In this document: positions 1,822-23,689 of the stretch, piece after piece
Layout of the letters: every line of letters starts with the position of its first letter
How positions within the stretch are numbered: position 1 is the first letter of the stretch
IMG/VR virus record: IMGVR_UViG_3300048136_000153
Location: 1 to 38,688 of that record
Reading direction: 5' to 3' (one strand)
From: a virus
Length of the DNA stretch: 38,688 nucleotides
The notes under the pieces: model-generated
The model's input: only the letters and a program-made list of their open reading frames with translations
Told to the model about the DNA's origin: nothing
The model's database searches: none
Position numbers and translations under genes: made by a program

Positions 1822-4800
1822 TTATTCCTCGACAACCAGGTCATTTGATGCACTGATAGCTACGCCAACCCCGTCTGTGGTGTTGTCTACACGCTGAAGC
1901 CCTCTGAACATCGACCGCCCGCTGTTTGTGCCTACGTGCAAAAGTTCTGTGTCTTCGTCATACGCAAGTGCGGTAACATTTTTGGCGGTGCCATAGTTGG
2001 TGCATTTAGCGTTCTCTTTGAAGAGGTGCTTCTCGTCGTTGTAAATCTTGGCAATCTGTTCAGCCGTGGGGGCCGTGGCTGAGATGCGGATAAGTGCTGC
2101 TTTACCGTTTAACCAGCTTGAACCTACTGGAACAGTATTTCTTCCACCAATAATTAGTGGCGGTGCGTTGCCCGTGCTTGTGTAACTAATATTTCTGGCA
2201 GTTCCAGATGTCGTGGCCTCAAGGCTGCCCTGCATATACATCTCAAGAACACCGTTTCTACGGACGGCGGTAAAGAAATACCATACGGAATCGTCATTTC
2301 CCATTGCCGTAGTAGATACTACACTTGTATTTGCATTGTTTTCGTATACATCAAATCTAAGGCTTTGCGTTGACTGCCAAATATTAAAACCCCAAAGATT
2401 GCTAGACCCATCACGCCCTTCCATGCGGTCGACAATCCAATCAGACGCAGCACTTTCTTGCACCCACCCCATCACGCAGAAGTCACCCGTACCAAAGTCA
2501 AGATCGGAGTTGTATTCCTGCTGTAGGTAGTTAGTGGGACTAAAACCACTATAGCCAACCAACTCTGCGCCGGTTGCTACAGGGTCTTTAGTAATGGTGC
2601 CGTTAATTAGGAGGCCATCGTTTCTATACGAGCGATCTGGCTCGGCGAGTTTGACAGAGACGTTGTCTATTTGAAGCGTACCCGTGTGACTACCAATTCT
2701 TTGGAAGCCTATAACCCAATCATGAGTATCTGAGATGAGACTGGTTACTGTATAAGTGCCGTCTGCAGTGTAGTAAGTACCTCCTTGGGTACTTATGATT
2801 GCGCCATTACCAGTTCTGCATGTGCACAGGCGAACTCCGAAATTTGCACTTGAGTTGCTAATTGTAAATGTGACGATGGCCTGCTTACCTGCTGGAAAAG
2901 CTGTACCGCCAGAGTTGTATATGGTTTCGTTGATGGTGCCATCAGCAACAGTTAGAACGCCCCCAGAAATCGTAGAGCCGTCAGTAGCAGTCCACTGAGC
3001 GGCGTCATCAAAACTGCCGCTTGCTACGTATTCAGTTCCACCAGTAACATTTGTGTCGTCGGTGTCAGCAAGGAAAGCACCTTTGATGTCGCCTACTAGC
3101 CACCCGCTTGTGTAAACATCGCTAGTACCGCAAACCATACTGTCACTGAAATTATCAGTATTAACCTTCAGCCTTGAGAAGCCCTGCCCAAACATCCATT
3201 TTATGGAGTTGGTTGTAGAGGCGCTACTTTGGTCATTGCCGAGAGCCGCCCCAGTGCCAGCCTTAATATCAACACTTCCTATTCTCTGCGTGTTGTTGCC
3301 GCCATGCACTTCATTAACAAACTCATTTCCACCTATGTATGTTTTAAATGAGCGGTCTGCATGACGTCCCACCATCATCAACGTCCAGTCTTCGTTGAAC
3401 GCCAGATCGTCGTCGTCGTGACTGCCGTAGTTCACCTGAAATACAGTGCCGTCATCGCGTATGATATTCACGTTGCTGTTGGTGCCTACTGCAATTGTAG
3501 GAACAGGCAGTCCTGTGTACGTGTCTATAGGCGCGGAGGGCAGGACAGTCATTTTGACATCGTAGACTCGATTGCTACTGATAGCTGGAATTCCTGCTAA
3601 AACATTTGATAAGGCGTCGTTACGCTGTTCAATTGTGCCTTTATATTTTGCACTTCCAAGAACGGCGTTAGTGTTAGTGTTTCCGTAATGGATGCCTTCA
3701 TCTTTTATAAAATAAACTCTGTCTAACCCTGCCCTAGCGCCATCATCATGGCCTACTACCAGTTCGCCATTTAACATAGCCACAGTGGTGTAGTAGTAGC
3801 CAGACCCTAGCGCCACCATGTTGTTATAGCCGTTGTTGAACACCATCCACATAGGCATTGATGGGTCGTCGCCGTCGTAGATAATTAGTTGATCTTGTTT
3901 TAATACCAAGACAGCCACAGCAGGGAACTGCTTAGTTGCGCCGCGCGTTGTAGTGTTTAGCGTCTCGTTGTACCAGCTTGTGCCTTGTGTGGTGTTTCTC
4001 CAAGCGCCGCCGTCTGAGTCTTTTGTCGTGTCGTAAACAAACACGTCTACTGCATTAAGAGACTTAGTCTCATCAATCGCTGCCAGGTTTTGATACGCGA
4101 CGGCTGACGCAGCCGACTGGCTGTATGTGTAGGCATCATCCTTGTGCGACTCCGCCTCGTCTCGATAACTCTGAGCCTGCGATGCAGACGTTGATGCGCT
4201 CGAGGCCGATGACGACGCGTTGCTTACCGCAGAATCTAAATCTACCAGGTCAGCGATAATGTTTGAGGCCGACGCGGCACTAGCGGCAGCCGACGACGCG
4301 CTAGAGGCAGCCGATGATGCGCTTGAAGTTGCAGACGTGGCGCTGCTTAACGCGCTAGATGCACTGCCCGACGCACTAGACTCCGACGCAGCTGCAGCCT
4401 GCTGGCTGTCTTCCGCGTTCGACTCGCTAGTCGCTGCAGCAGTCGCACTGCTTGCTGCCGCCGTCGCTGAGCTGGATGCCAGGTCTGCACTGCTTGACGC
4501 CTGGGTGGCGCTAGTCGATGCCTGGGTGGCGCTAGTCGATGCACTGGCAGCGTTAGACGCTGCACTTGATGCGCTACTGGACGCAGCAGACTCGCTCGAG
4601 GCCGCGTTTGTCGCGCTAGTCGATGCCGATGTCGCACTCGCAGCCGCAGCAGTCGCAGACGACGCAGCGTTGCCTGCGTTAGTGGCAGCGTTGCTGACGT
4701 CGGTCATGTTGTCAGCGACAGAGTTCACGTCGGCCATGTTGTTGGCGACAGTGTTAACGTTCGAGATGCTGCTGCTCACTGACCCGATGGTGTTGTCACC

Positions 4801-8329: not shown

Positions 8330-8596
8330 TTACTCTTCCGTTGGTTGTTTGCGCAACTCTAGGTTGTTAATGATGGAAGCGAATTGCTGCACAAACAGCT
8401 GCCCCGACTTAAACATTAAATAAAGACGCTCGCGCTCTTCACTGGCCTCGGGCGGTGTCTGCAGAATTTGCTCTATGAGATGGTTGTTCATCATCGAGAA
8501 CGCTTTGTTAAACACTGCACTGTTCAGCATCTCGGTAGCGGCATCGGCTTCCGCCTGAATTTCGCCAATGTCTTGGTCGTTGATTTGGTCAGTCAT
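8330..8596 (-). CDS. Small helical phage protein between portal and scaffold
   Basis: 88 residues, all-helical, mildly acidic. Segments NSAVFNKAFSMMNNHLIEQIL and PPEASEERERLYLMFKSGQ resemble a small protein often found between portal and capsid genes in tailed phages. Its function is unknown to me. The ATG at 8596 overlaps the stop of the upstream gene by eight bases. It lies inside the head-assembly cluster, so a minor head or assembly role is inferred. Confidence 0.7.
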   Translation of the reverse strand: MTDQINDQDIGEIQAEADAATEMLNSAVFNKAFSMMNNHLIEQILQTPPEASEERERLYLMFKSGQLFVQQFASIINNLELRKQPTEE

Positions 8597-8790: not shown

Positions 8791-10842
8791 CTAGCCTCCT
8801 ATCGATACGTTTCTCTTCTGTGTCTTCTCAAGCTCCAGCTCTTCTTCGCGGATCTTGATGTCATGCTTCTGGCGCTGCGCGTCGAGCATGAGACGCGACT
8901 CTTTCTCTTCCTCGGTAAACTCTTGCTTCTCCATGTCGAGCATTACGCGGTTCTGCTCCTTCACAACCTCAAGCTCTAGCTGGCCCTCCATGACCGCAAC
9001 CTGGCGCGCCGTCATGCCGGCCTGGAAGGTCTCCATCTCCTGCTGACGTGCCTGCATTTCCTGCGCTTGCTGCGACTGCTGCTGCTGCATCTGCTGGAAC
9101 TCAGGCGAGGCCGGGTTAGCCAGGTAGCTGCCGCCGTCCTTGATGCTCATAAGCTCAAAGGCGCGACTGAGCAGCGCGTGCCTCTGCTGCTGGCCGTACA
9201 GGCCGCCCAGGGTCGGATCCTGTGGGTTCATTGTGAACTGCTGGTCCAGGCTCATAAGAGTCTGCGCTTCCTTCATCTGCTCCTCGGGTGTCAGCGCCAC
9301 CGCAACGCTCATCTCGGTACGGTCTCCCAGGAACTGAGGATTCACAGGCACAAACTGCCCATCGAGCTGCAGCATCTTCTCCTGGCTTTCGTACTGAATC
9401 GCCAGCTTGTAGATGTCGTGCATCAACGGCTTCAGGAAGTTCTCCGCGAAGTTCCTGGCCATGACCATGATTCGCCGGTTACTGGCGTTCATGAAGGTGT
9501 TAATCAGGTCGCTGGAGTTTTGCTTGCTGATCGCGGTGGAGTCCATGCCGCGTGACATGCGAGACGCGCCAGAGCGTGCCTCCTTCTCCTGCTCCATAGA
9601 CTCGATCGCTGTGTAAACGTTGCCGTTGAGCTGCGGCGTCGGCAGCGGTCGCACAACGCTCTCAGGGTTGGGGCTGTTTACATCGATAACGGCACCGACC
9701 CGGTTATCCAGGAGGTCCCGCGGGTTCTTAACCAATGACAGGTTGGCAACCCAACGGCTGGTTGTAGTTAAGAACAAGTGATCGACGACGCCACGCTTCA
9801 GGCTAGACATGGTTTTCTGCAAGTCGACAACAACGTCTGCCAGGCTCATACCATAGAAGCGGTGAGGTAGCGGGAACGGGCAGAATGCGCGGAACGGCAT
9901 CTCGCTGACCAGCTCCATATCGAGCATAACTCTGCGGCTGTGGATGCACTTGTAGTAGACGCACTCGTTGAGGTCCGGGTCGTGTTTCTTAATGTATGAC
10001 TCGTATACCGTCACATACTCCCGGTCCCGGTCGTCGTTTAGATTCGTTGAGTCTTTGCGGAAGCTGTCGACACTGTCGCGGCCCAGGGAGCCGTCCTCTT
10101 TCAACATGTCCTCCTCGTCCAGCCTGGCGATCACGTCGGGGTCGAAGCCCTCAGCCATCAACTCGCCACGGGTTCGAGCTGTGCGGTATGAACAAAAGTC
10201 GCTGTCGTCGATGGTCTTAGCGCGCGGGCTGATCAGGAAGTCTTCAGGCTCTACGCACTCCACGCACACCTTGCTTGTGTTGAACCGGCGACGCAGCTCA
10301 CCGCTATACGACACCATGCCGTTAACGTTCACCTCCTGGATAGTTGTCAGCTCAACCTGCGGGTCGGCTGCCAGGACACTAAACGCGCCCTCGTCCAGGG
10401 CCTCAAACTCCTCCGACTGATATCGGTAGTCGTTTTTCCAGTACCGTTTCACGATGCCAGATTTGGCGACCAGGGCGTCGTGGATCACGTCGCTCATAAT
10501 CTTATAGCCGTCGTTTTGCCGGTAAAAAATGTAATTCGTGAGCTCAGTTGCCATCCTGGCGCCCATAACGTCCTCGGGCGTTTGCGGATCGAACCGGCAC
10601 ACGTTCCTGTCGGCGCTGAACGTCTCCAGGAGCATGGCCTTCACAGCCTCAACGGCGTCGAAGACGTCCATGCTTACATGGTGCGAGCGGCCTTTCACCT
10701 CGTTGCCGATCGGTTCACCGTAGTAGTACCGGTGGGCTCGGTCCCGCTGGTCACCTACTTCGCTGTTGGCGTAGGTATCGGCGGCGTCAATGTTTCGCTC
10801 CAGGGTGGATAGGAGCTCGTTTTGGTCAATAGTCATATTCAT
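8791..10842 (-). CDS. Portal protein (P22-like size)
   Basis: 683 residues; the start at ATG 10842 overlaps the TerL end by 17 bases. The N-terminal third contains the pattern usual in podovirus portals (RDRAHRYYYGEPIGNEVKGRSHHVSMDVFDAVE, seen here in parts). This is followed by VCRFDPQTPED and a YRTARTRGELMAEGF segment. The last 120 residues are a Gln/Glu/Met-rich helix (about 565-670) resembling the barrel of P22-type portals. It forms the dodecameric DNA gate and terminase docking site at one capsid vertex. Length is close to P22 gp1 (about 725). Order TerS-TerL-portal-scaffold-capsid supports the call. Confidence 0.9.
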   Translation of the reverse strand: MNMTIDQNELLSTLERNIDAADTYANSEVGDQRDRAHRYYYGEPIGNEVKGRSHHVSMDVFDAVEAVKAMLLETFSADRNVCRFDPQTPEDVMGARMATELTNYIFYRQNDGYKIMSDVIHDALVAKSGIVKRYWKNDYRYQSEEFEALDEGAFSVLAADPQVELTTIQEVNVNGMVSYSGELRRRFNTSKVCVECVEPEDFLISPRAKTIDDSDFCSYRTARTRGELMAEGFDPDVIARLDEEDMLKEDGSLGRDSVDSFRKDSTNLNDDRDREYVTVYESYIKKHDPDLNECVYYKCIHSRRVMLDMELVSEMPFRAFCPFPLPHRFYGMSLADVVVDLQKTMSSLKRGVVDHLFLTTTSRWVANLSLVKNPRDLLDNRVGAVIDVNSPNPESVVRPLPTPQLNGNVYTAIESMEQEKEARSGASRMSRGMDSTAISKQNSSDLINTFMNASNRRIMVMARNFAENFLKPLMHDIYKLAIQYESQEKMLQLDGQFVPVNPQFLGDRTEMSVAVALTPEEQMKEAQTLMSLDQQFTMNPQDPTLGGLYGQQQRHALLSRAFELMSIKDGGSYLANPASPEFQQMQQQQSQQAQEMQARQQEMETFQAGMTARQVAVMEGQLELEVVKEQNRVMLDMEKQEFTEEEKESRLMLDAQRQKHDIKIREEELELEKTQKRNVSIGG

Positions 10843-12474: not shown

Positions 12475-12858
12475 CTACAGCTTTGAGGGATCGATGCCTG
12501 CCTCGCGCAGCGACTGCAGTGCCATCTCAATGTCGATGCTGTTCGTTACGTCAGCCGCAACCTCAGCGTTGATATCCTGGCGGTCACGCCAGCCTGCTCG
12601 GTTCTTGAGGTAGAAGATCATCGCCGACACGTTCGGTTTATCGCCGGCCGTTGCAGCCTCGTATAGCGCATTCGTGACGTTCTCGATGCCTTTGTGCTTG
12701 CCACGCTTTAAAGCAGCCACAAATGCGTCATCGTCCCTCTTTCGCCTGTCGATTGTGCTGCGGCTTATACCCAGGGTGTCTGCTATCTGTTGCTCGCTCA
12801 GCCCTTGCGCTGCCAGCTTTTCCACCCTGTCCACGTCTATCTCGATGCGGTTGGCCAT
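12475..12858 (-). CDS. Terminase small subunit-like helix-turn-helix protein
   Basis: 127 residues from ATG 12858, with GGGAAGGG nine bases upstream. Residues about 10-40 form a clear helix-turn-helix (VEKLAAQGLSEQQIADTLGI, SRSTIDRRKR). The middle (FVAALKRGKHKGIENVTNALYEAA) and the NVSAMIFYLKNRAGWRDRQD segment match the short phage terminase small subunits that read a resolvase-like HTH. It would recognise the packaging site and hand DNA to TerL. It is the first gene of the late block and lies behind the operator-bearing promoter region at 12895-12920. Confidence 0.85.
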   Translation of the reverse strand: MANRIEIDVDRVEKLAAQGLSEQQIADTLGISRSTIDRRKRDDDAFVAALKRGKHKGIENVTNALYEAATAGDKPNVSAMIFYLKNRAGWRDRQDINAEVAADVTNSIDIEMALQSLREAGIDPSKL

Positions 12859-12894: not shown

Positions 12895-12920
12895 AGTATA
12901 TGCTAATCAACTGTTGGTTG
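12895..12920 (-). promoter_or_regulatory. Candidate late promoter with CAAC-N5-GTTG operator
   Basis: Reading towards TerS, a -10-like TATACT lies at 12900-12895. The palindrome CAAC-TGTTG-GTTG (12908-12920) sits seven bases upstream of it, in the spacer/-35 region. No good -35 hexamer is visible, so an activator or a weak promoter is possible. The same palindrome is found in the early regulatory regions. Confidence 0.6.
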
Positions 12921-12946
12921 TATAGACACCAGGTGAGTGTCACATT

Positions 12947-12970
12947 CACAGGCTCACAGGCTCACAGGCT
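12947..12970. repeat. Three perfect tandem copies of CACAGGCT
   Basis: The 8-mer CACAGGCT repeats head-to-tail at 12947-12954, 12955-12962 and 12963-12970; a further copy is at 12412-12419. It shares the CACAGG core of the dispersed repeats in 12996-13397. Confidence 0.9.
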
Positions 12971-13198
12971 CATAATGTTAGTGGTCACTAACTTTTGGCA
13001 CAGGTAGCCTATTTCAACCTGTGCCGGCCTGAAAACCGCATAGAATAAGGCTTTCAGCCGATTTGGCGCCAAGGGTGGCACAGGTAGGAACAGGTGGATT
13101 TGTGCAACCTGTGCCACCTCTAAGCTGTTGATTTATATACAGTTTCAGCCCTTTTTCCATGGGGTGGCACAGGTAAAACAGGTTTTTCGCCAAGTTCA

Positions 13199-13320
13199 GT
13201 AGGAATATATATTTTTACAGCCTTATAGCCGTAACTTTTATAAATCCATAGCAACTATACTTTTACTTGTTCCACTTGTTCCTAAATAAATAAAAGAATA
13301 AAAAGAATAATAAAAACAAT
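13199..13320. other. AT-rich tract within the candidate origin
   Basis: Long A/T runs (AATATATATTTTTA, TAAATAAATAAAAGAATAAAAAG in part) stand out in a genome of roughly even base composition. It has no start/stop structure of a gene. It may serve as the DNA-unwinding element. Confidence 0.55.
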
Positions 13321-13416
13321 AACTTACCCGTTCCTCCGGTGTCACAGGTTGTTCCCCGCCAACCTGTGCCAAACCCCATAATCTTGTGCCACCTGTGCCA
13401 CCCACCGCCCAGGCAT

Positions 13417-13453
13417 AAAAAAGCCCCGACAGCCACTCGTAAACTGTCGAGGC
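13417..13453 (-). terminator. Intrinsic terminator of the left early block
   Basis: On the minus strand GCCTCGACAG (13453-13444) pairs with CTGTCGGGGC (13432-13423) over ten bases, with one G-U wobble that would be a mismatch on the other strand. An uninterrupted run of six T follows (13422-13417). It lies 33 bases beyond the stop of the last left early gene and separates that block from the origin region and TerS. Confidence 0.9.
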
Positions 13454-13485
13454 AAGGGGTCCACTCTCGTGGGCCTGGGAGTCGT

Positions 13486-13650
13486 CTAATCAGCCTGGTA
13501 CTCGTCGCTGGCCTTCCAGGCTTCCAGGTCACCCCGCTCATATAGATTGAGCTCGGTGTCCAGGCCGTCGTCCTCACCCTCTGGGCAGCCAGGCTCGTGG
13601 TCGCCGACGGTGTGGATGATGTTGTAGCAGGCATCACAGAAGTGTCTCAT
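13486..13650 (-). CDS. Small acidic CxxC protein
   Basis: 54 residues from ATG 13650, which overlaps the previous stop (ATGA) and has GGGAGG upstream. The N-terminus FCDACYNIIHTVGDHEPGC has Cys-x2-Cys plus one further Cys and two His, a possible small zinc knuckle. The remainder is acidic. The function is unknown. It is the last gene before the terminator of the left early block. Confidence 0.65.
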   Translation of the reverse strand: MRHFCDACYNIIHTVGDHEPGCPEGEDDGLDTELNLYERGDLEAWKASDEYQAD

Positions 13651-13853
13651 GAGCACACCTCCCGCCCCTGGTATGGTGGCCAGCCTTCGCTGCCGTTGCT
13701 GGCGTCCCACACTGCCAGGTTGGCGCAGTATTCTTTCTGCAGCAGCACAGCCTCCTGGTAGTCGCCAGAGCCTACAAGGCCCATCGCCACGAGGATCAAT
13801 AAAACAATAATTACGCTCTTGCCTATGTCCTTTGTCTCTTTCTCGTAAAACAT
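13647..13853 (-). CDS. Small single-pass membrane protein
   Basis: 68 residues from ATG 13853 (GGAGG five bases upstream); a GTG at 13856 is too close to the ribosome site. After a charged FYEKETKDIGKS comes one hydrophobic helix (VIIVLLILVAMGLVG, about residues 14-28). A Cys-containing soluble tail of about 40 residues follows. It could be an early membrane protein such as an exclusion or host-modifying factor, but nothing proves that. Confidence 0.65.
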   Translation of the reverse strand: MFYEKETKDIGKSVIIVLLILVAMGLVGSGDYQEAVLLQKEYCANLAVWDASNGSEGWPPYQGREVCS

Positions 13854-13863
13854 CACAGCCTCC

Positions 13864-14058
13864 TCAGTGCACCGTGAACGGTATGCCGAACACTTCCTGC
13901 CACTCGCGCGTGTTGTACGCGGGTGCGTTCTCGATAGCGTAAAAAGCCGCGATCAGGTCACGGCACGCCTCCTCGTCATCAAACAAGCGCATGATCATCT
14001 CACGCGCCAGCTGCTCGAGCTTGTCAGCTCGTAGTTTGTGCCACTCGGCCTCAGTCAT
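13864..14058 (-). CDS. Small helical early protein
   Basis: 64 residues from ATG 14058, overlapping the upstream gene by eight bases. It is predicted helical and acidic (EAEWHKLRADKLEQLAREMIM, then DDEEACRDLIAAFYAIE) and ends with EVFGIPFTVH. I do not recognise a family. It is expressed with its neighbours in the left early block. Confidence 0.6.
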   Translation of the reverse strand: MTEAEWHKLRADKLEQLAREMIMRLFDDEEACRDLIAAFYAIENAPAYNTREWQEVFGIPFTVH

Positions 14059-14299
14059 TAGCCACCCCCTGGTCTAAGAACTCGCGCACTGTGCCGGTGA
14101 AGGCTGCAGCGCGCTGGTTAAACGCTGTTAGATCGGTCATCCACAGCTCCCCAGGCAGTATGCCACGCCCCTGGGCGGCCTCGATGATCTCGAGCCACTC
14201 GTTGTCGGTGCAGTTGACCAGGGCGCTGCGGGCCACGCGGTCCATGACCGGGACCCTGTTGGGTTTAAGTTGAACAACACGGTTATTAAGCTTTGGCAT
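14051..14299 (-). CDS. Small early protein of unknown function
   Basis: 82 residues from ATG 14299 with an unusual long ribosome-site leader (GCCTGGGAGGGCA) that is identical to the one before 14726. The protein starts with basic VVQLKPNRVPVMDRVAR and continues with NEWLEIIEAAQGRGILPGELW. No domain is recognised. A 6-bp hairpin (GGCCGC/GCGGCC, 14322-14337) overlaps the stop of the upstream gene just before this leader. Confidence 0.6.
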   Translation of the reverse strand: MPKLNNRVVQLKPNRVPVMDRVARSALVNCTDNEWLEIIEAAQGRGILPGELWMTDLTAFNQRAAAFTGTVREFLDQGVAND

Positions 14300-14304
14300 A
14301 ACGT

Positions 14305-14318
14305 TGCCCTCCCAGGCT
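14305..14318 (-). promoter_or_regulatory. Duplicated ribosome-binding leader (copy 1; copy 2 at 14732-14745)
   Basis: The 14-mer TGCCCTCCCAGGCT (plus strand) is exact at 14305-14318 and 14732-14745, just ahead of the starts at 14299 and 14726. Its complement contains GGGAGGG, a strong Shine-Dalgarno. The identity beyond the SD suggests shared translational control or a duplicated gene start. Confidence 0.75.
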
Positions 14319-14327
14319 AATGGCCGC

Positions 14328-14726
14328 TTATGCGGCCTTGATGTATTGAGGATAGATAGACTCGATGACGCGAGTAGCGTAGTTACTGGCCACGTCTTCA
14401 GAGACCAGCCCTGTCTCGACTAGCTGGCGAGCGATCTCGTGGAGAGTGACCTTGGAGCGGATTCGATTTGCAAATACGCTTTTCTTGATAGGGTTGATGG
14501 GGCGCTCACCGAGCAGCTTGATGTTGTCGACGCTGTCAGTCTTCAGCTCACCTTCGACGTAGTAGTCGATGTAAGCCTCACGCTCGAGCTGCTGGCGCAT
14601 CTCGCCCAGGTTGTTCAGCTCAACGAGTTGGTCATAGGTGCGGTCTTCGACCTCGTTTGAAAGGTAGTCCATACGATCGTTGATAACTTTAAGGGTTGCG
14701 ATTGCTGCGTTGTTAGTAAAGTTCAT
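14328..14726 (-). CDS. Early helical protein of unknown function
   Basis: 132 residues from ATG 14726, chosen over a longer in-frame start because GGGAGGG lies eight bases upstream. It is helical and charged: TLKVINDRMDYLSNEVED, then a coiled stretch, then VTLHEIARQLVETGLVSEDVA near the C-terminus. The C-terminal part could be a small DNA-binding or coil domain; no family is recognised. It is the first gene after the operator-controlled promoter at 14780-14820. Confidence 0.65.
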   Translation of the reverse strand: MNFTNNAAIATLKVINDRMDYLSNEVEDRTYDQLVELNNLGEMRQQLEREAYIDYYVEGELKTDSVDNIKLLGERPINPIKKSVFANRIRSKVTLHEIARQLVETGLVSEDVASNYATRVIESIYPQYIKAA

Positions 14727-14779
14727 TGTGCTGCCCTCCCAGGCTTTTGTTAGTGGCGGTGTCCCCCGCCGACAAGAGA

Positions 14780-14820
14780 AGTATCTCAAAGCACAGTTGT
14801 ATCGTCAACTATTAGTTGAC
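14780..14820 (-). promoter_or_regulatory. Sigma70-type promoter with overlapping palindromic operator
   Basis: On the minus strand TTGACG (14808-14803), a 17-base spacer and GATACT (14785-14780) form a good promoter. The -35 is embedded in a perfect palindrome GTCAAC-TATTA-GTTGAC (14804-14820), whose core matches CAAC-N5-GTTG. Binding there would block RNA polymerase. The operator also covers the last codons and stop of the upstream HNH gene. Confidence 0.75.
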
Positions 14821-15290
14821 TGTTTCTCCACTAAATTTTTAACCCACCAGTAAAGCTGGTCCTCCGAGAGGGTGTGTTTCATGATGTTGATGCGGTACGC
14901 GACCAGCTGCACGTTGCCGTGCATGTAGCCAAGGTCGGGGTTGATGCGGTCCACGCTGGCGTTGAACTCCTTATGACCGCCACCGTCTTTGTGGTGCGTC
15001 ATGAACACGCCAGACAGGGCGCAGCGCCCCTCCTGGATCTCCCACAGCTCTATCAGATGATCGGCGTCGATCTTCCACTCGGCTCGGTTCTTGGCGGTGT
15101 TCGAGTACTTGCTCTGGGATGCCAGGTTGCGCAGGTAGCCTTCACGGCTTGAGCTGTTAGTACGCTGTGCAGACTGCCGGCACCTGCGACAGGTGTTCTC
15201 ATAGGTGCCGTTTTTGCGTTTGTAGTAAGCGTCAAGGGGCAGCACCTGGTGGCACCCCTTACACTTCTTGTTATCCCCCGAATCGCTCAT
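14805..15290 (-). CDS. HNH-type endonuclease with zinc-ribbon head
   Basis: 161 residues from ATG 15290. The N-terminus carries Cys10-x2-Cys13 and Cys34-x2-Cys37, a zinc-binding ribbon. Later residues GRCALSG (88-94), ASVDRINPDLGYMHGNV (111-127) and the Asn at 135 match the HNH nuclease pattern common in phage homing-type and packaging-associated nucleases. It lies between prim-pol/helicase and the small early genes, and its stop sits inside the operator of the next promoter. It may be a free-standing homing endonuclease or a phage recombination/packaging nuclease; a host-DNA-degrading role is also possible. Confidence 0.75.
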   Translation of the reverse strand: MSDSGDNKKCKGCHQVLPLDAYYKRKNGTYENTCRRCRQSAQRTNSSSREGYLRNLASQSKYSNTAKNRAEWKIDADHLIELWEIQEGRCALSGVFMTHHKDGGGHKEFNASVDRINPDLGYMHGNVQLVAYRINIMKHTLSEDQLYWWVKNLVEKQSTNS

Positions 15291-15309
15291 GTAGCGATTA
15301 TACGACGTC

Positions 15310-17574
15310 CTAGAACGGTACGTCGTCGTCTTCCCAGTTTGCAGGATCTAGCGGGTCACCGGCCTCAACTACCGGCCACGACAGCTTGACGTTGTTGTGA
15401 GCCTCAAAGGCTCCCCGGGCATCGCTGAGCATTGCCAGCTTCACGCACCGGACACGTGCCTCACCGACACGCTTCTGTGTTTCCCCCATAACTAACCCCT
15501 CACAGGCTCTTAGGTGTTTCCAGAATGCCACCTCTTTCATGGGCGACTCGTATCTGCCACGGACGCTGCTGACATAGATGTCGTACAGCTGCGCCTTCGG
15601 GACGTCATCGCCCCACTCTACTTTGTCGCCAGCGACACGGTGCTCACGTATCTCGCCGTTCTGCAGGCAGCTTAACAGCCAATTATCTATCGTGCCCATG
15701 CTCTCCAGCTTCTGGTCCGATAGCGCCTCAGTGTGGGGCGCCGACCGCACGTTGATGGTGCTGAGGTCGAAAGACTGAAGGAAGTGCATGATTGCAGCCG
15801 CACCACCTTGGACATACCAGCGGTCCAAATTGGCAAAGTACTGCGAGTCTTGCTGCCTGCAGGTGCTGACATCGAATACAGCGAACCGCCTCTCGTCCAG
15901 GGACGCCGGCACGACCCAATCCTCGTTCGATGTAAACAGGATCCGCGTGTAGTTGGGCGCCGTGTAGGCGTCTACGCCCTTACGCTCGATGGTGATCTCT
16001 GGGTTGGTCAGTAGGTCCTTGAGCGCACCCTCAGAGCTCTTAGCCCCAGCCCAGAAAGCCTCGTCGGCCTGCAGGATCAGGGTGTCCTCCAGGTGCCGGT
16101 TGAAGTTACCGGTCACGTGCTCAGCCCTGGACACGATCTTGTGGTGTGCCTTAACCAGGCCACCCAGGATCTCACCGAACTTAGTCTTGCCCGTACCCTT
16201 ACGGCCTCGCAGCACTAACCCGACACCGACCTTGGTCAGTGGCTGCTGAATGATCTGCGCGCACCAGGCGATGATGTAGTTGGCGTACTCTGCGTTGCCG
16301 TCTGCGATGACGTCGGTCACGAAGTCGATCCAGGGCTGCACGTCACCCTGCACAGGCTCAAAGGTCCAGCCCTGCCACAGGTTGTACTTCGACAGCTTCT
16401 CGCTGTCCGGTGCAAAGGTCAGCCCCGCGGGATAGGTCCTACGCTCGGGGTGCTCTAGCCATAGGTCGACCAGGTTCACCATCTTCGGCTTCCCGCCGTC
16501 GTCTGCCAGGATGCGGCAGTTGGCGTACTCTTTCTTTAAGTCCTCGAGCTTATAAAGCACGATCGACACGCCGGTGATGTCCTCTCGGATCACCCTGGCG
16601 CTGCCCTCTACCTGGACGAAAGCCCAGTGCTTGAGCATTTCGGGCAGCTTCTCTTCCTTGACCTCCTCGCCGACGACCTCCATCTCCTGGCGCTTGATGA
16701 AGGCAGCGGTCACTGGCATCTTGCCTTCGCTGTCGAACGTGTCCCACCGACGCTCACACTCACCTGGCTGATACTTGGCGCCGGTCGCTGACCAGTCGTC
16801 CCACAGCTCCAAACCTTCTAGCTCACCGTCGAACTGGTGGTGTAGGGCCATGCCGACCTTGATCCAGTCATCGTGGTGGGCGTCGGGGTCTATCTTTTCC
16901 AGGAGCTCACGCATTTCCTGGGCGGTGGCGTTTAGCTTTGGCCGCAGGTGTGACAGGTCGTCGGGGTCGTGCTGCACAGCCTCAACGCCTTTCCGCACCA
17001 GCTCCCACCCACGCTCAGAGGCGCGTCGTTCAAAGTAGTCGACAAACGCCTGCGCCTTGTCGCGAGTAATGACCGGGAGCTTAGTCCAGGGTGTGTCGGC
17101 GATGCTGATACCGTTGACCCACTGGTACGGTTGATTGGTTTGTGGGTGTATCCCGAACGCCACGAACTGCTGCCCGTCGGCCAGGATCTCCACCGCGTGC
17201 TTGCTGCCCTCAGCGTCCTCATACTCAGAGCTGCGGATCTTGGTAAACCCACCCTCAACCCTAAACGGCATAATGCACTTAGGTTTCTTGCCGACGCGGA
17301 TCGGCGACTGGCCAATGTTCTCTTTCAGCCAGTGGATCAGGTCATAGTTGAGTTTTCGGTCGTGGCAATCGATATCGACCGCAATGGTCTTACGGCATAG
17401 GACACCGATACCGCCGTCCTTGTGCCCGTTGCCTGACCAGGTGTCGACGTCATTGTGCGTCGCCCGGATATCTTGCCAGCCTGGTAGCACTGGCGCCTTC
17501 TTGCCTTTCTTGATGGGCACGATTTCGTACCCCATGTCGACCATCCGATGGCCGTATTGTTGTAAGAATGCCAT
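15310..17574 (-). CDS. Primase-polymerase / superfamily 3-type helicase fusion
   Basis: 754 residues from ATG 17574. The N-terminal archaeo-eukaryotic primase (prim-pol) domain covers about 1-165 and has the metal-binding DID at 67-69 (IAVDIDCHD) and HAVEIL at about 126-131. A PriCT_2-like linker (about 215-285) follows, with WIKVGMALHH and ELWDDWSATG. The C-terminal D5/VirE-like helicase has Walker A GRKGTGKT at 457-464, Walker B-like LILQADEAFW at 499-508 and a sensor ILFTSNEDW at 546-553. One protein would thus make primers and unwind the fork, working with the PolA at 19647. It lies in the left early block, opposite in direction to the other replication genes. Confidence 0.9.
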   Translation of the reverse strand: MAFLQQYGHRMVDMGYEIVPIKKGKKAPVLPGWQDIRATHNDVDTWSGNGHKDGGIGVLCRKTIAVDIDCHDRKLNYDLIHWLKENIGQSPIRVGKKPKCIMPFRVEGGFTKIRSSEYEDAEGSKHAVEILADGQQFVAFGIHPQTNQPYQWVNGISIADTPWTKLPVITRDKAQAFVDYFERRASERGWELVRKGVEAVQHDPDDLSHLRPKLNATAQEMRELLEKIDPDAHHDDWIKVGMALHHQFDGELEGLELWDDWSATGAKYQPGECERRWDTFDSEGKMPVTAAFIKRQEMEVVGEEVKEEKLPEMLKHWAFVQVEGSARVIREDITGVSIVLYKLEDLKKEYANCRILADDGGKPKMVNLVDLWLEHPERRTYPAGLTFAPDSEKLSKYNLWQGWTFEPVQGDVQPWIDFVTDVIADGNAEYANYIIAWCAQIIQQPLTKVGVGLVLRGRKGTGKTKFGEILGGLVKAHHKIVSRAEHVTGNFNRHLEDTLILQADEAFWAGAKSSEGALKDLLTNPEITIERKGVDAYTAPNYTRILFTSNEDWVVPASLDERRFAVFDVSTCRQQDSQYFANLDRWYVQGGAAAIMHFLQSFDLSTINVRSAPHTEALSDQKLESMGTIDNWLLSCLQNGEIREHRVAGDKVEWGDDVPKAQLYDIYVSSVRGRYESPMKEVAFWKHLRACEGLVMGETQKRVGEARVRCVKLAMLSDARGAFEAHNNVKLSWPVVEAGDPLDPANWEDDDVPF

Positions 17575-17588
17575 GTATCCCCCGCAGC

Positions 17589-17816
17589 TTAGACTTCATC
17601 GACTTCATTCAATATTTGTGGTGCCAACTGCCACCACTTCACTTTCCCGTCTGTTAACACTTCCATCTGGCAAGCCCGCAGCGCCGGCACCTTTCCCTCG
17701 GTGCGCCATTTAGATAGCGCCTGCTTAGTTACATCTAACCGTCCGGCCAGCTTGTTGTAGCTGTTCTGAGCCACTAGCTCTGCCACTTTGTCGATGCTGA
17801 TCCGCACCAATTGCAT
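17589..17816 (-). CDS. Cro/YdaS-like transcriptional regulator
   Basis: 75 residues from ATG 17816 (GGAAGAG upstream); an in-frame GTG at 17831 would add five residues. The sequence has a compact helix-turn-helix (NKLAGRLDVTKQALSKWR). It is followed by VPALRACQMEVLTDGKVKWWQLAP, the arrangement of Cro/YdaS-type phage repressors where the recognition helix is followed by an IP-x-RA-like motif. It is transcribed divergently from the replication block. The intergenic region carries two copies of the CAAC-N5-GTTG palindrome, so it is the most likely factor that binds the four such sites. No CI-like partner is seen. Confidence 0.8.
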   Translation of the reverse strand: MQLVRISIDKVAELVAQNSYNKLAGRLDVTKQALSKWRTEGKVPALRACQMEVLTDGKVKWWQLAPQILNEVDEV

Positions 17817-17861
17817 GTCTTTCTCTTCCACTTTCCGTCCCTCAACTTCAACCTGTACTTA

Positions 17862-17918
17862 CAACATACGGTTGACACCCTATAGTCAAACCCTTATTGT
17901 CGCAACAACTTTTGGTTG
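17862..17918. promoter_or_regulatory. Divergent early control region with two operators
   Basis: Palindromes CAAC-ATACG-GTTG (17862-17874) and CAAC-TTTTG-GTTG (17906-17918) flank a plus-strand promoter: TTGACA at 17872-17877, 17-base spacer, TATTGT at 17895-17900. The -35 overlaps the first operator; the second lies just downstream of the start site. A minus-strand TTGACT (complement of 17889-17884) mirrors the plus -35 within the inverted repeat GTTGAC-N8-GTCAAAC, but its -10 is weak. The replication block starts at 17938 behind GGAG. Confidence 0.75.
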
Positions 17919-17937: not shown

Positions 17938-19062
17938 ATGGCACACAGTGTTTTGGGGGCATCAAAAGCGCATAGATGGATAACCTGCCCGGGGTCCGTC
18001 AGATTAGAAGAAAAATTTCCCGACACCACATCTCCCGCGGCTGCTGAGGGCACGGCAGCTCACGCATTAGCTGAGGTTTGTCTCACGATGAACCTGGCAC
18101 CGGAACAATACATTGGCTCGACTGTTGAGGACCACTTGGTCGATGACCACATGGCCGGGCACGTCGCCACGTACATCGACTACATCAACATGCACCCCGG
18201 TGTGCACTACTTTGAGGTAAAGGTCGATTACTCAGCGTACGCACCTGGCGGATACGGCACCGCCGACTGCCTATCGTTCGCCGACGGGGTCATGCGCGTC
18301 ATCGATTTAAAGTACGGCCGCGGCGTCAAGGTGTTTGCCGACGATAACGCGCAGCTCAAGCTGTACGCCCTGGGCGCTTTCCTCCAACACGGGTTCGACT
18401 TCCAGGTCGACGTCATTGAGATGACGATCGTGCAGCCCCGACTGGATCACATCGACACTGCCATTATGCGCGTGAAGGATCTCCTGGCGTGGGCACGTAA
18501 CGTTGTAAAGCCAGCGGCCGAGCTGGCCATTACAGACGACGCACCCTTTAAACCAAGCGAGGGCGCGTGTCGGTTTTGTAAAGCTAAGGCCAGCTGCAAA
18601 GCCTTAGCGGATCACAACCTCATAGCCGTACAGGGTGAGTTTGAGAACCTGGACGAGGCGCTGGAGCAGCGCAGCCCCGACACACTAAACCCCGAGGAGC
18701 TTGCCGAGCTGTTGCAGAGGGCAGACCTCATAACCTCATGGGCGACCAGCCTGAAAGAGCACGCAACCAATACGTTATTTAACGGCGGCGTGATTCCTGG
18801 CTACAAGGTCGTGTCCGGTCGCAGCCACCGAAAGTGGGTGGATGATGAAAAGGCAGCCTATGAGGTGCACAAAAGATTGGGACAGGCAGCATTCACGTCC
18901 CGACTCAAATCTCCGGCGCAAGTAGAAAAAATGCTTGGCCGCGCAGATAGCGGTGAGATTGCCGAACTCATCGTTAAACCCGAAGGCAAGCCAACCCTGG
19001 TGTCTGATACGGATCCACGTCCGGCAGTAGGCGCGGCATTTAATGATCTGAATGAGGAATGA
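17938..19062 (+). CDS. DUF2800 protein, Cas4/RecB-like nuclease
   Basis: 374 residues from ATG 17938 with GGAG six bases upstream. The PD-(D/E)xK core is visible: Asp110 (GYGTAD), Asp123-x-Lys125 (VIDLKYG) and the RecB-type QLKLYALG at 139-146. Cys17 near the N-terminus and Cys211, Cys214, Cys220 (CRFCKAKASC) form the four-cysteine set that holds an iron-sulphur cluster in Cas4/AddB-type nucleases. DUF2800 genes are regularly next to the Enc34-type SSB and PolA in phages, as here. It probably processes DNA ends or recombination intermediates during replication. It is the first gene of the right early operon. Confidence 0.9.
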   Translation: MAHSVLGASKAHRWITCPGSVRLEEKFPDTTSPAAAEGTAAHALAEVCLTMNLAPEQYIGSTVEDHLVDDHMAGHVATYIDYINMHPGVHYFEVKVDYSAYAPGGYGTADCLSFADGVMRVIDLKYGRGVKVFADDNAQLKLYALGAFLQHGFDFQVDVIEMTIVQPRLDHIDTAIMRVKDLLAWARNVVKPAAELAITDDAPFKPSEGACRFCKAKASCKALADHNLIAVQGEFENLDEALEQRSPDTLNPEELAELLQRADLITSWATSLKEHATNTLFNGGVIPGYKVVSGRSHRKWVDDEKAAYEVHKRLGQAAFTSRLKSPAQVEKMLGRADSGEIAELIVKPEGKPTLVSDTDPRPAVGAAFNDLNEE

Positions 19063-21766: not shown

Positions 21767-22022
21767 GGCATATATTGAAAAACGCGTTACCGAGTTGGCG
21801 AAAGCCAAGGGGTGGCTGTCGTTCAAATGGGTGTCGCCTTCGCAGCGAGGCGTCCCCGATCGCATGTACTTCAAAGATGGGCGCATCGTCCTGGTCGAGT
21901 TCAAGGCGCCAGGTAAAAAAGCAACACCGTACCAGGAGGCCATACATCGGCGGCTGCTGGCAGTTGGATTTTCTGTCCACGTTATCGACTCCGTTGAAGA
22001 CGGAGAGAAACTTTTATGCTGA
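21726..22022 (+). CDS. VRR-NUC nuclease
   Basis: About 98 residues. GTG 21726 has AAGGA just upstream, but a shorter start near 21756 (TTG) cannot be excluded. The sequence WVSPSQRGVPDRMYFKDGR, then LVEFKAPGKKATPYQ holds the PD-(D/E)xK signature of the VRR-NUC family (PD at GVPDR, E-x-K at EFK), followed by HRRLLAVGFSVHVID. In phages this stand-alone domain travels with the SNF2-like helicase that follows, and may resolve branched DNA. Its stop overlaps the helicase start. Confidence 0.9.
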   Translation: MAKSTITAITLVREAYIEKRVTELAKAKGWLSFKWVSPSQRGVPDRMYFKDGRIVLVEFKAPGKKATPYQEAIHRRLLAVGFSVHVIDSVEDGEKLLC

Positions 22023-23392
22023 AGCGCACTAACTTACACCCCTATCAGCTCAGAGCTGCGGAGTTTATTCAGCAAAATAAGTCCGCTGCGCTGTGGATTG
22101 ATATGGGACTAGGCAAGACGGTCAGCACCCTGACTGCGCTATCTGACATGCTCGAGGCCGGCGAAGTGAAGCGCGCCCTCGTGATTGCGCCGTTACGCGT
22201 CGCGCAACACACCTGGCCCAGCGAGGTCGAGAACTGGCAACACCTGAAACATCTGGAGCTGTGCGTCCTGGCAGGTAAGCCACAGGCTGCACGCCTGGCC
22301 GGGCTCAAGAGCAGCGCACCGATTCACATCATTAACAGGGAGAACATACCGTGGTTAGTAGACACATTAGGCACCAAGTCATGGGCATACGATTGCGTCG
22401 TAATCGACGAGAGCAGCTCCTTCAAAAACTCAAGCTCGAAAAGGTGGAGGGCCATGAGGAAGATATTGGGCGGCGTCTCTCGGATGATACAGCTGACGGG
22501 CACACCAGCGCCGAACAGTCTTATAGAGCTATGGCCGCAGATATATCTGCTGGATCGGGGGAAGAGACTGGAGAACACGAAGGGTAAGTTCCTGGAGAAG
22601 TACTGCCGCCAGGTGGGCAACCCGTCCTGGGCTCAGTACGAGGTGAAGCCAGACCGTGTGCCAGCGATATACAAAGCCGTCGAGGATGTCGTCCTCCGCA
22701 TGGGCGCAGCCGAATACCTGGACCTGCCCGACCGGGTAGACAGCCAGGTTGTGGTGCAGCTCCCCGGACCGGCCAAGAAAGCATACGAGCAGATGGAGCG
22801 AGACTTCTTAATCCAGGTCGATGAAGGTGAGATCCTGGCAGTCAATGCGGCTGTGCAAATCAATAAGCTGCTCCAGGTCGGCAACGGCGCCGTTTATAAC
22901 GAAGACGGTGGCTGGTCAGAGCTGCACACCGCAAAGCTCACAGCCTTGCAGGAGATTATCGACACCGCCCAAGAGCCTGTCCTTGTGGCGTACCACTACA
23001 AAAGCGACCTGGCACGAATCACGAAGGCGCTAGGTTCAAAAAACGTCCAAGTGCTAGACAAGAATCCTCGAACGATAGATCAATGGAACGCCGGCAAGAT
23101 ACCTGTCTTGTTAGCCCACCCCGCTAGTGCAGGTCACGGCCTGAACCTGCAAAAGGGCGGAAACGTCATTGTGTGGTTTGGTTTGAGCTGGTCACTGGAG
23201 CTGTATCAGCAGTTCAATGCCCGGCTGCATAGGCAGGGGCAAACAAAACCGGTACGCATTCATCATATTTTGGCAGACACACCTGCTGATCGCGGGGTGT
23301 TTGAAGTACTGCAAGGAAAAGCGGAGACGCAAAACAACTTGCTTCAACACTTCATTGACAAAATTTCAAACGCAAAAAAAAAGTTGAGGTAA
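22016..23392 (+). CDS. SNF2/DEAD-like superfamily 2 helicase
   Basis: 458 residues from ATG 22016. Motif I is DMGLGKT (29-35), motif II DESSSFKN (131-138), and motif III LTGTPAPN (160-167). The C-terminal domain has the SNF2-like HGLNLQKGGNVIVWFG and the arginine-finger motif QQFNARLHRQGQ. Length is that of the short phage SNF2-type proteins with no accessory domains. It is expected to move or remodel DNA with the VRR-NUC protein made immediately before it, in replication or recombination. The end of the operon follows after DUF3310. Confidence 0.95.
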   Translation: MLKRTNLHPYQLRAAEFIQQNKSAALWIDMGLGKTVSTLTALSDMLEAGEVKRALVIAPLRVAQHTWPSEVENWQHLKHLELCVLAGKPQAARLAGLKSSAPIHIINRENIPWLVDTLGTKSWAYDCVVIDESSSFKNSSSKRWRAMRKILGGVSRMIQLTGTPAPNSLIELWPQIYLLDRGKRLENTKGKFLEKYCRQVGNPSWAQYEVKPDRVPAIYKAVEDVVLRMGAAEYLDLPDRVDSQVVVQLPGPAKKAYEQMERDFLIQVDEGEILAVNAAVQINKLLQVGNGAVYNEDGGWSELHTAKLTALQEIIDTAQEPVLVAYHYKSDLARITKALGSKNVQVLDKNPRTIDQWNAGKIPVLLAHPASAGHGLNLQKGGNVIVWFGLSWSLELYQQFNARLHRQGQTKPVRIHHILADTPADRGVFEVLQGKAETQNNLLQHFIDKISNAKKKLR

Positions 23393-23639: not shown

Positions 23640-23689
23640 GGTGCGTATAGCGCCTTTCTGCGATCGCCCTGTAAATCAATGGCTTAGGA

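Follow-up and report, generated by a model that had tools for sequence, protein, structure and literature searches.

In this study, we propose that the palindrome CAAC-N5-GTTG, repeated along the genome of an uncultured podophage, most probably functions as the operator at which a lysogeny repressor of the CI family acts, and that a natural, D29-like virulent derivative of a temperate phage has retained these operators as orphans. The window, i.e., the whole stretch of DNA analyzed, is the complete IMG/VR virus record IMGVR_UViG_3300048136_000153 (38,688 bp), which originates from one metagenomic assembly. It contains a podophage-like gene set (small and large terminase, portal, scaffold and major head protein), and the nearest isolates share less than 50% identity with its proteins. 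The relatives compared are uncultured podophages from three clades: near-identical fragments (G001, G002, G022, G023, L038), an intermediate clade (G018-G020, L031, L033, L086; primase identity ~65%) and a distant clade (G003-G017; 53-58% for the Cro-like protein and ~55% for the primase). From the sites, their conservation, the missing lysogeny genes and a correlation between motif and CI recognition helix, we infer operator binding, repression and a lytic lifestyle.

Conservation of the palindrome

The window contains six exact copies of CAAC-N5-GTTG, at 8354, 9752, 12908, 14806, 17862 and 17906, where 0.67 copies are expected from dinucleotide shuffles of the window and none of 100 shuffles reached six. 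The first-pass annotation had correctly reported the last four as exact matches and had rightly put the chance expectation below one copy in 38.7 kb, but its total of four overlooked the copies at 8354-8366 and 9752-9764. Its view that all copies are located at promoters holds, as judged by eye, for the four it listed, whereas the two overlooked copies both lie within genes. Compared against all palindromes with 4-bp arms and spacers of 0-15 bp, the raw count of this palindrome ranks only 16th out of 4096 in the window, while it ranks first in the relatives G013 and G014. Copy number is therefore, post hoc, weaker evidence than initially claimed, and the argument has to be built on conservation and context. 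The best form of the motif is [A/T]CAACN5GTTG[A/T].

A scan of relatives for the motif, suggested as a check in the first-pass annotation, showed the element at equivalent positions in each of three clades. Five places are fixed: 27 to 35 bp before the exonuclease gene, with an additional copy at -76 in the window's clade; 61 to 144 bp before the small terminase gene; 53 to 55 bp before the scaffold gene in all clades; upstream of the CI-like gene; and where the excisionase gene ends or the kinase gene starts. Some of these copies carry a single mismatch, namely those upstream of CI in the window and intermediate clades, before the exonuclease in G018-G020 and L033, and before the terminase in L040/L041. 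Of the 66 exact copies in an 18-sequence subset, 37 fall within zones that together make up 8.5 kb out of 310 kb (2.8%). In the distant clade, GTTGACA combines the operator with the -35 of a putative CI promoter.

It is hardly credible that the palindromes are mere products of chance or codon usage. The modest rank of the raw count would fit this explanation, and the portal copy at 9752, which is largely codon-driven, may be such a case. However, positions are conserved amid diverged surroundings in three clades, the motif correlates with a recognition helix in another phage family (see below), and the explanation is already contradicted for the sites at 12908, 17862, 17906 and 8354. In the latter copy, the AAC AAC .. 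TTG codons are kept in 7/7 lineages at synonymous positions, and its TTG is the sole fully conserved column among the 12 four/six-fold invariant columns of the overlapping 88-amino-acid open reading frame. Conservation across the relatives argues that the motif is functional, in agreement with the initial prediction of a repressor-type operator that is repeated at early and late promoters and conserved in relatives.

Probable loss of the lysogeny genes

Twelve relatives extend to the end of the early operon, and in every one of them the helicase gene is followed by genes for a CI-like repressor (209-224 amino acids), an excisionase-like protein (Xis), a kinase and an integrase (Int), with no kinase match in the case of G003. 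In the window, we found no integrase, excisionase or full HTH_3 (helix-turn-helix) repressor. The absence of a CI partner, as noted in the first-pass annotation, is thus confirmed and extends to the integrase: the window lacks the integrase and excisionase genes that mark a temperate phage as well as the CI gene of a lambda-type CI-Cro switch, whereas the sister G002 has all of them and every relative covering the locus has CI. G002 is 91-96% identical to the window and aligns to it on both flanks of two clean gaps. The gap comprising CI and Xis falls between window positions 23369 and 23379 and ends inside a seventh operator, of which the GTTG half remains at 23383-23386; the second gap comprises the integrase. 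A search for other records sharing the junction region of the window returned only G002. Loss of CI, Xis and Int in the window's lineage would be the simplest history, because all three clades have these genes.

Alternatively, the window could be an artifact, composed or mis-assembled from a temperate population, the phage in reality being temperate. It is a metagenomic contig whose closest sister is temperate, but the two gaps are separate and clean, the helicase and kinase frames are intact and there is no other sign of chimerism. Two chance joins of non-adjacent points, both around lysogeny genes, are not to be expected, and we consider this explanation unlikely. A search for prophages in bacterial genomes yielded two contigs of this phage family, L086 and L087, and no clearly integrated copy with its host.

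Correlation with the CI recognition helix

Eight CI proteins, that of the sister among them, carry an identical recognition helix, VSQEAVRKW; the other seven are 37-50% identical to the sister protein. Homologs of this CI occur in siphophages of the Casjensviridae, with an equal helicase-repressor(-excisionase) order. We assembled a panel of these phages by CI similarity and counted the motif, using the reversed pattern as a control (Table 1). The six genomes with a V[ST]xEAVR[KR][WY]-type helix contain 4-14 copies versus 0-4 for the controls, while the three genomes with an altered helix and the one without CI show no clear motif excess. Across this unrelated siphophage panel the motif thus appears to track the CI recognition helix, as a correlation. 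In SS2019XI, 5/12 site centers are non-coding compared to 5.9% of the genome (p=4e-4), and 7/12 sites touch intergenic DNA, including the divergent primase/exonuclease region and gene boundaries inside the structural operon.

Table 1. Motif copies and CI helices in the Casjensviridae panel
Phage	CI helix	CAACN5GTTG copies	Control copies
SS2019XI	VTQEAVRKW	12	2
AH2	MSQEGVRKW	4	0
KPN-N133	VSHEAVRKW	6	2
AchV4	VSHEAVRKW	14	2
RHph_X2_30	VSPEAVRKW	13	1
PS6	ISQEAVRRY	13	4
RcCWillis	VTAETVRKW (altered)	2	3
RcGingersnap	VTSETVRKW (altered)	2	3
DSS3-P1	VSRNAMSKW (altered)	1	1
BcepNazgul	no CI match	3	1

The idea that Casjensviridae have no Cro was rejected, AH2 gp77 being annotated as Cro, and the helices were compared instead. 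The Cro-position proteins of SS2019XI and AH2 have unrelated helices, yet the motif is present. These data bear on the model of the first-pass annotation, in which the 75-amino-acid Cro-like protein is the sole regulator and shuts early and late transcription via four sites, without a CI partner. The Cro-like gene adjoins two of the sites, the core helix VTKQA[LI]SKW is common to the distant clade with its identical operator, and the window itself has no CI, all of which suits such a single-repressor switch. Nevertheless, we regard it as improbable: CI is present in all relatives covering the locus, with CI, Xis and Int of the sister positioned at the very gaps of the window, the motif is retained in phages with an unrelated helix in the Cro-position protein and follows the CI helix in an unrelated phage family, and there is no clear excess where the CI helix is altered or CI is absent.

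The C-terminal part of the sister CI (L079:1913-2584) is, in its AlphaFold model, weakly similar to the PD-(D/E)XK fold of Hjc (Foldseek E-value 3e-4, template modeling (TM) score ~0.3/0.5) and is possibly a degenerate nuclease domain reused for dimerization.

Proposed mechanism and points against it

The operators are most readily explained by the following model of the temperate ancestor. CI, whose gene lies where the early operon ends and which carries the HTH_3 helix V-S-Q-E-A-V-R-K-W, would bind as a dimer to dispersed palindromic sites and block the -35 or start regions of both divergent early operons (Cro-like/primase and exonuclease). It would also shut the packaging/late operon, act at the scaffold gene, and autoregulate its own transcription together with the xis/kinase region. 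In the phage of the window, repressor, excisionase and integrase would have been lost by two clean deletions while the operators were kept, as potential targets of the Cro-like protein and of a CI supplied by a related prophage. Because CI, Xis and Int are gone while the operators remain, this phage is probably obligately lytic, of the clear-plaque type, and still repressible by the CI of a related prophage.

Several points weigh against CI operators that have been orphaned by deletion. The proposed binder is absent from the window, and the window operators are consequently not under CI selection there now. Within the clade of the window, and likewise in G019/G020, the site upstream of CI is degenerate (CAACN5GTGG), and G018 lacks exact sites at the Cro/exonuclease region. 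AH2 contains only four copies despite a matching helix. Furthermore, the conserved zones were chosen after inspection of the data, the helix classes were read after the counts were known, and the deletions are known from one metagenomic assembly.

Cro-like protein

The protein encoded at 17589-17816 matches Pfam P22_Cro with 42.3 bits, above the curated cut-off of 30.2. Its AlphaFold model (predicted local distance difference test score 92) shows the all-helical Cro fold, with Foldseek TM scores of 0.73-0.86 to Xfaso1 Cro (3bd1) and a root-mean-square deviation of 1.2-1.4 for the two best chains. Its helix varies among relatives (VTKQALSKW, VTKQAISKW, VSRQALHKW, VTKQALSIW, LEKQNVAAW).

Operators shared between CI and Cro are a general rule of lambdoid switches. 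Likewise, the Cro-like protein may share the CI operators here, for which the chances are about even or slightly lower; both proteins would then bind the same sites as in lambda, with Cro alone acting as a lytic down-regulator in the window. Such sharing is compatible with operators of a CI repressor and extends this reading. In addition to the general rule, two sites flank the promoter of the Cro-like gene, and the sites are intact in the window and its sisters. On the other hand, several exposed positions are not the same in the helices of Cro (TKQALSK) and CI (SQEAVRK), and BcepNazgul, without a CI match, has little site excess (3 versus 1 in the control).

In Pseudoalteromonas phage AL (L083), positions 2749-2852 show an alike divergent primase-regulator-exonuclease layout with GTGTTTA/TAAACAC arms instead of CAAC-N5-GTTG. 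Phages AL and PHS21, which share this layout, were rejected as motif carriers, each having one in-gene copy. Vibrio phage Valp1, the isolate with the most similar Cro-like protein, possesses a CI/Cro pair of its own and contains the motif once in the 18 kb examined.

Individual sites, promoters and neighboring genes

The features of the window are listed in Table 2; its promoter calls are consensus matches only and were placed by eye. The minus strand encodes the primase with the Cro-like gene upstream, and the rightward early operon encodes exonuclease, SSB, DNA polymerase and helicase. Operator 1 has equal spacing in the sisters G001 and G002. It is operator 2 that other clades retain at the corresponding position, either exactly or with one mismatch; in most relatives, its counterpart lies 27 to 35 bp before the exonuclease gene. 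The operator at 14806 has the 6-bp perfect arms described initially (GTCAAC-N5-GTTGAC) and is also present in the sister G022, while the site upstream of the small terminase is found in all clades covering that region.

Table 2. Coordinates of features in the window
Feature	Position	Strand	Basis
Operator 1, Cro-like/exonuclease divergent region; overlaps -35 (TTGACA 17872-17877) of rightward promoter	17862..17874	+	exact match
Operator 2, over start of rightward promoter	17906..17918	+	exact match
Predicted rightward early promoter TTGACA-N17-TATTGT (-10 at 17895)	17872..17900	+	consensus match only
Operator over -35 (TTGACG) of small-gene promoter TTGACG-17-GATACT; -10 GATACT at 14785-14780	14806..14818	-	
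Operator just upstream of TATACT -10 (12895-12900), small-terminase (packaging/late) operon	12908..12920	-	
Operator 55 bp upstream of scaffold start, in last codons of 88-amino-acid open reading frame	8354..8366	-	
Copy within portal gene, probably coding by-product	9752..9764	-	
Deletion junction 1: CI-like repressor and excisionase missing (~0.9 kb in G002)	23369..23386	+	sister alignment
Deletion junction 2: integrase missing (~1.07 kb in G002)	23654..23655	+	sister alignment
Cro-like helix-turn-helix protein, 75 amino acids, Xfaso1/P22 Cro family	17589..17816	-	Pfam P22_Cro 6e-11
Exonuclease (DUF2800), first gene of rightward early operon	17938..19062	+	
SNF2-type helicase, last early gene before missing repressor	22016..23392	+	phrog_62
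Terminase small subunit, first gene of packaging/head operon	12475..12858	-	phrog_309
Primase-polymerase/helicase, co-directional with Cro-like gene	15310..17574	-	

The portal copy was rejected as an operator: it is mostly codon-driven, encoding the invariant peptide TTTSRW, and is lost by synonymous change in the L040/L041 and L087 lineages. Exactly 10 bp upstream of three of the six sites (8344, 9742, 14796) an extra GTTG is present, giving GTTG-N6-CAAC-N5-GTTG, and the GTTG-N6-CAAC spacing in the portal genes of relatives yields tandem sites 19 bp apart. This tripartite arrangement was set aside, two of its three sites being in coding sequence.

The AT-rich and little-coding segment 12999-13397, which separates the small genes from the small terminase, contains eight CACAGGT/ACCTGTG heptamers in 400 bp (ten including AACAGGT/ACCTGTT). 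The cluster, also present in sisters and in L040/L041, is iteron-like and a possible candidate replication origin. In L172, from the same record as L039, tandem GGCTGTGA repeats, exceeding those of the window in length, are located upstream of the small terminase at 4055 and directly precede the late promoter.

Comparison with known systems and implications

The closest functional parallel is the pair D29 and L5. D29 derives from an L5-like temperate parent by deletion of the repressor, has retained the stoperators and is homoimmune with L5 (PMC5712189). As in the window, a lytic relative has its repressor deleted and dispersed sites kept, some of them beyond the early promoter; here, the sites before small terminase and scaffold are conserved and SS2019XI has sites in structural intergenic regions. 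By analogy, the system of the window would follow the same logic in uncultured podophages. The two differ in that the integrase is lost too in the window, and hosts and genomes are unrelated. In L5-type systems, a monomeric repressor binds to sites that are asymmetric 13-mers (PMC9283540). These number ~24, while those of the window are palindromic, number 5-6 and thus lack the asymmetric orientation with transcription that characterizes stoperators.

Casjensviridae phages SS2019XI, AchV4 and AH2 share a homologous CI (~31-34% identity), a like gene order past the helicase and CAACN5GTTG, but they are siphophages of 57-70 kb with other head/tail genes and other Cro-position proteins. In AH2, gp70 and gp77 were earlier likened to CI and Cro (PMC3483164). 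As in the lambda/P22 switch, divergent early promoters are combined with one CI-type and one Cro-type protein, and operators cover the -35 and start, as seen at 17862 and 17906. Unlike in lambda/P22, CI lies ~5 kb away from Cro, where the early operon ends, the operators extend to late genes, and Pfam recognizes no LexA-type C-terminal domain in CI. The Cro-like protein has the predicted fold of Xylella Xfaso1 Cro and P22 Cro. In the literature searched, no paper naming a CAACN5GTTG operator was found, which is no proof of absence.

It is conceivable, though rather doubtful, that a Gram-negative counterpart of the stoperator system exists, in which a helicase-CI-Xis-Int module with dispersed CAACN5GTTG sites is common to podophages and siphophages, and a wild member without CI, Xis and Int keeps the operators as a Cro-like, lytic-only regulon. 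In any case, the analysis provides a predicted operator for a CI-family repressor in two unrelated phage groups. The matching, altered and absent helices would represent natural specificity variants that make the protein-DNA code testable. Finally, the window may capture a temperate-to-virulent transition in nature beside a near-identical temperate sister, which predicts cross-immunity between both.

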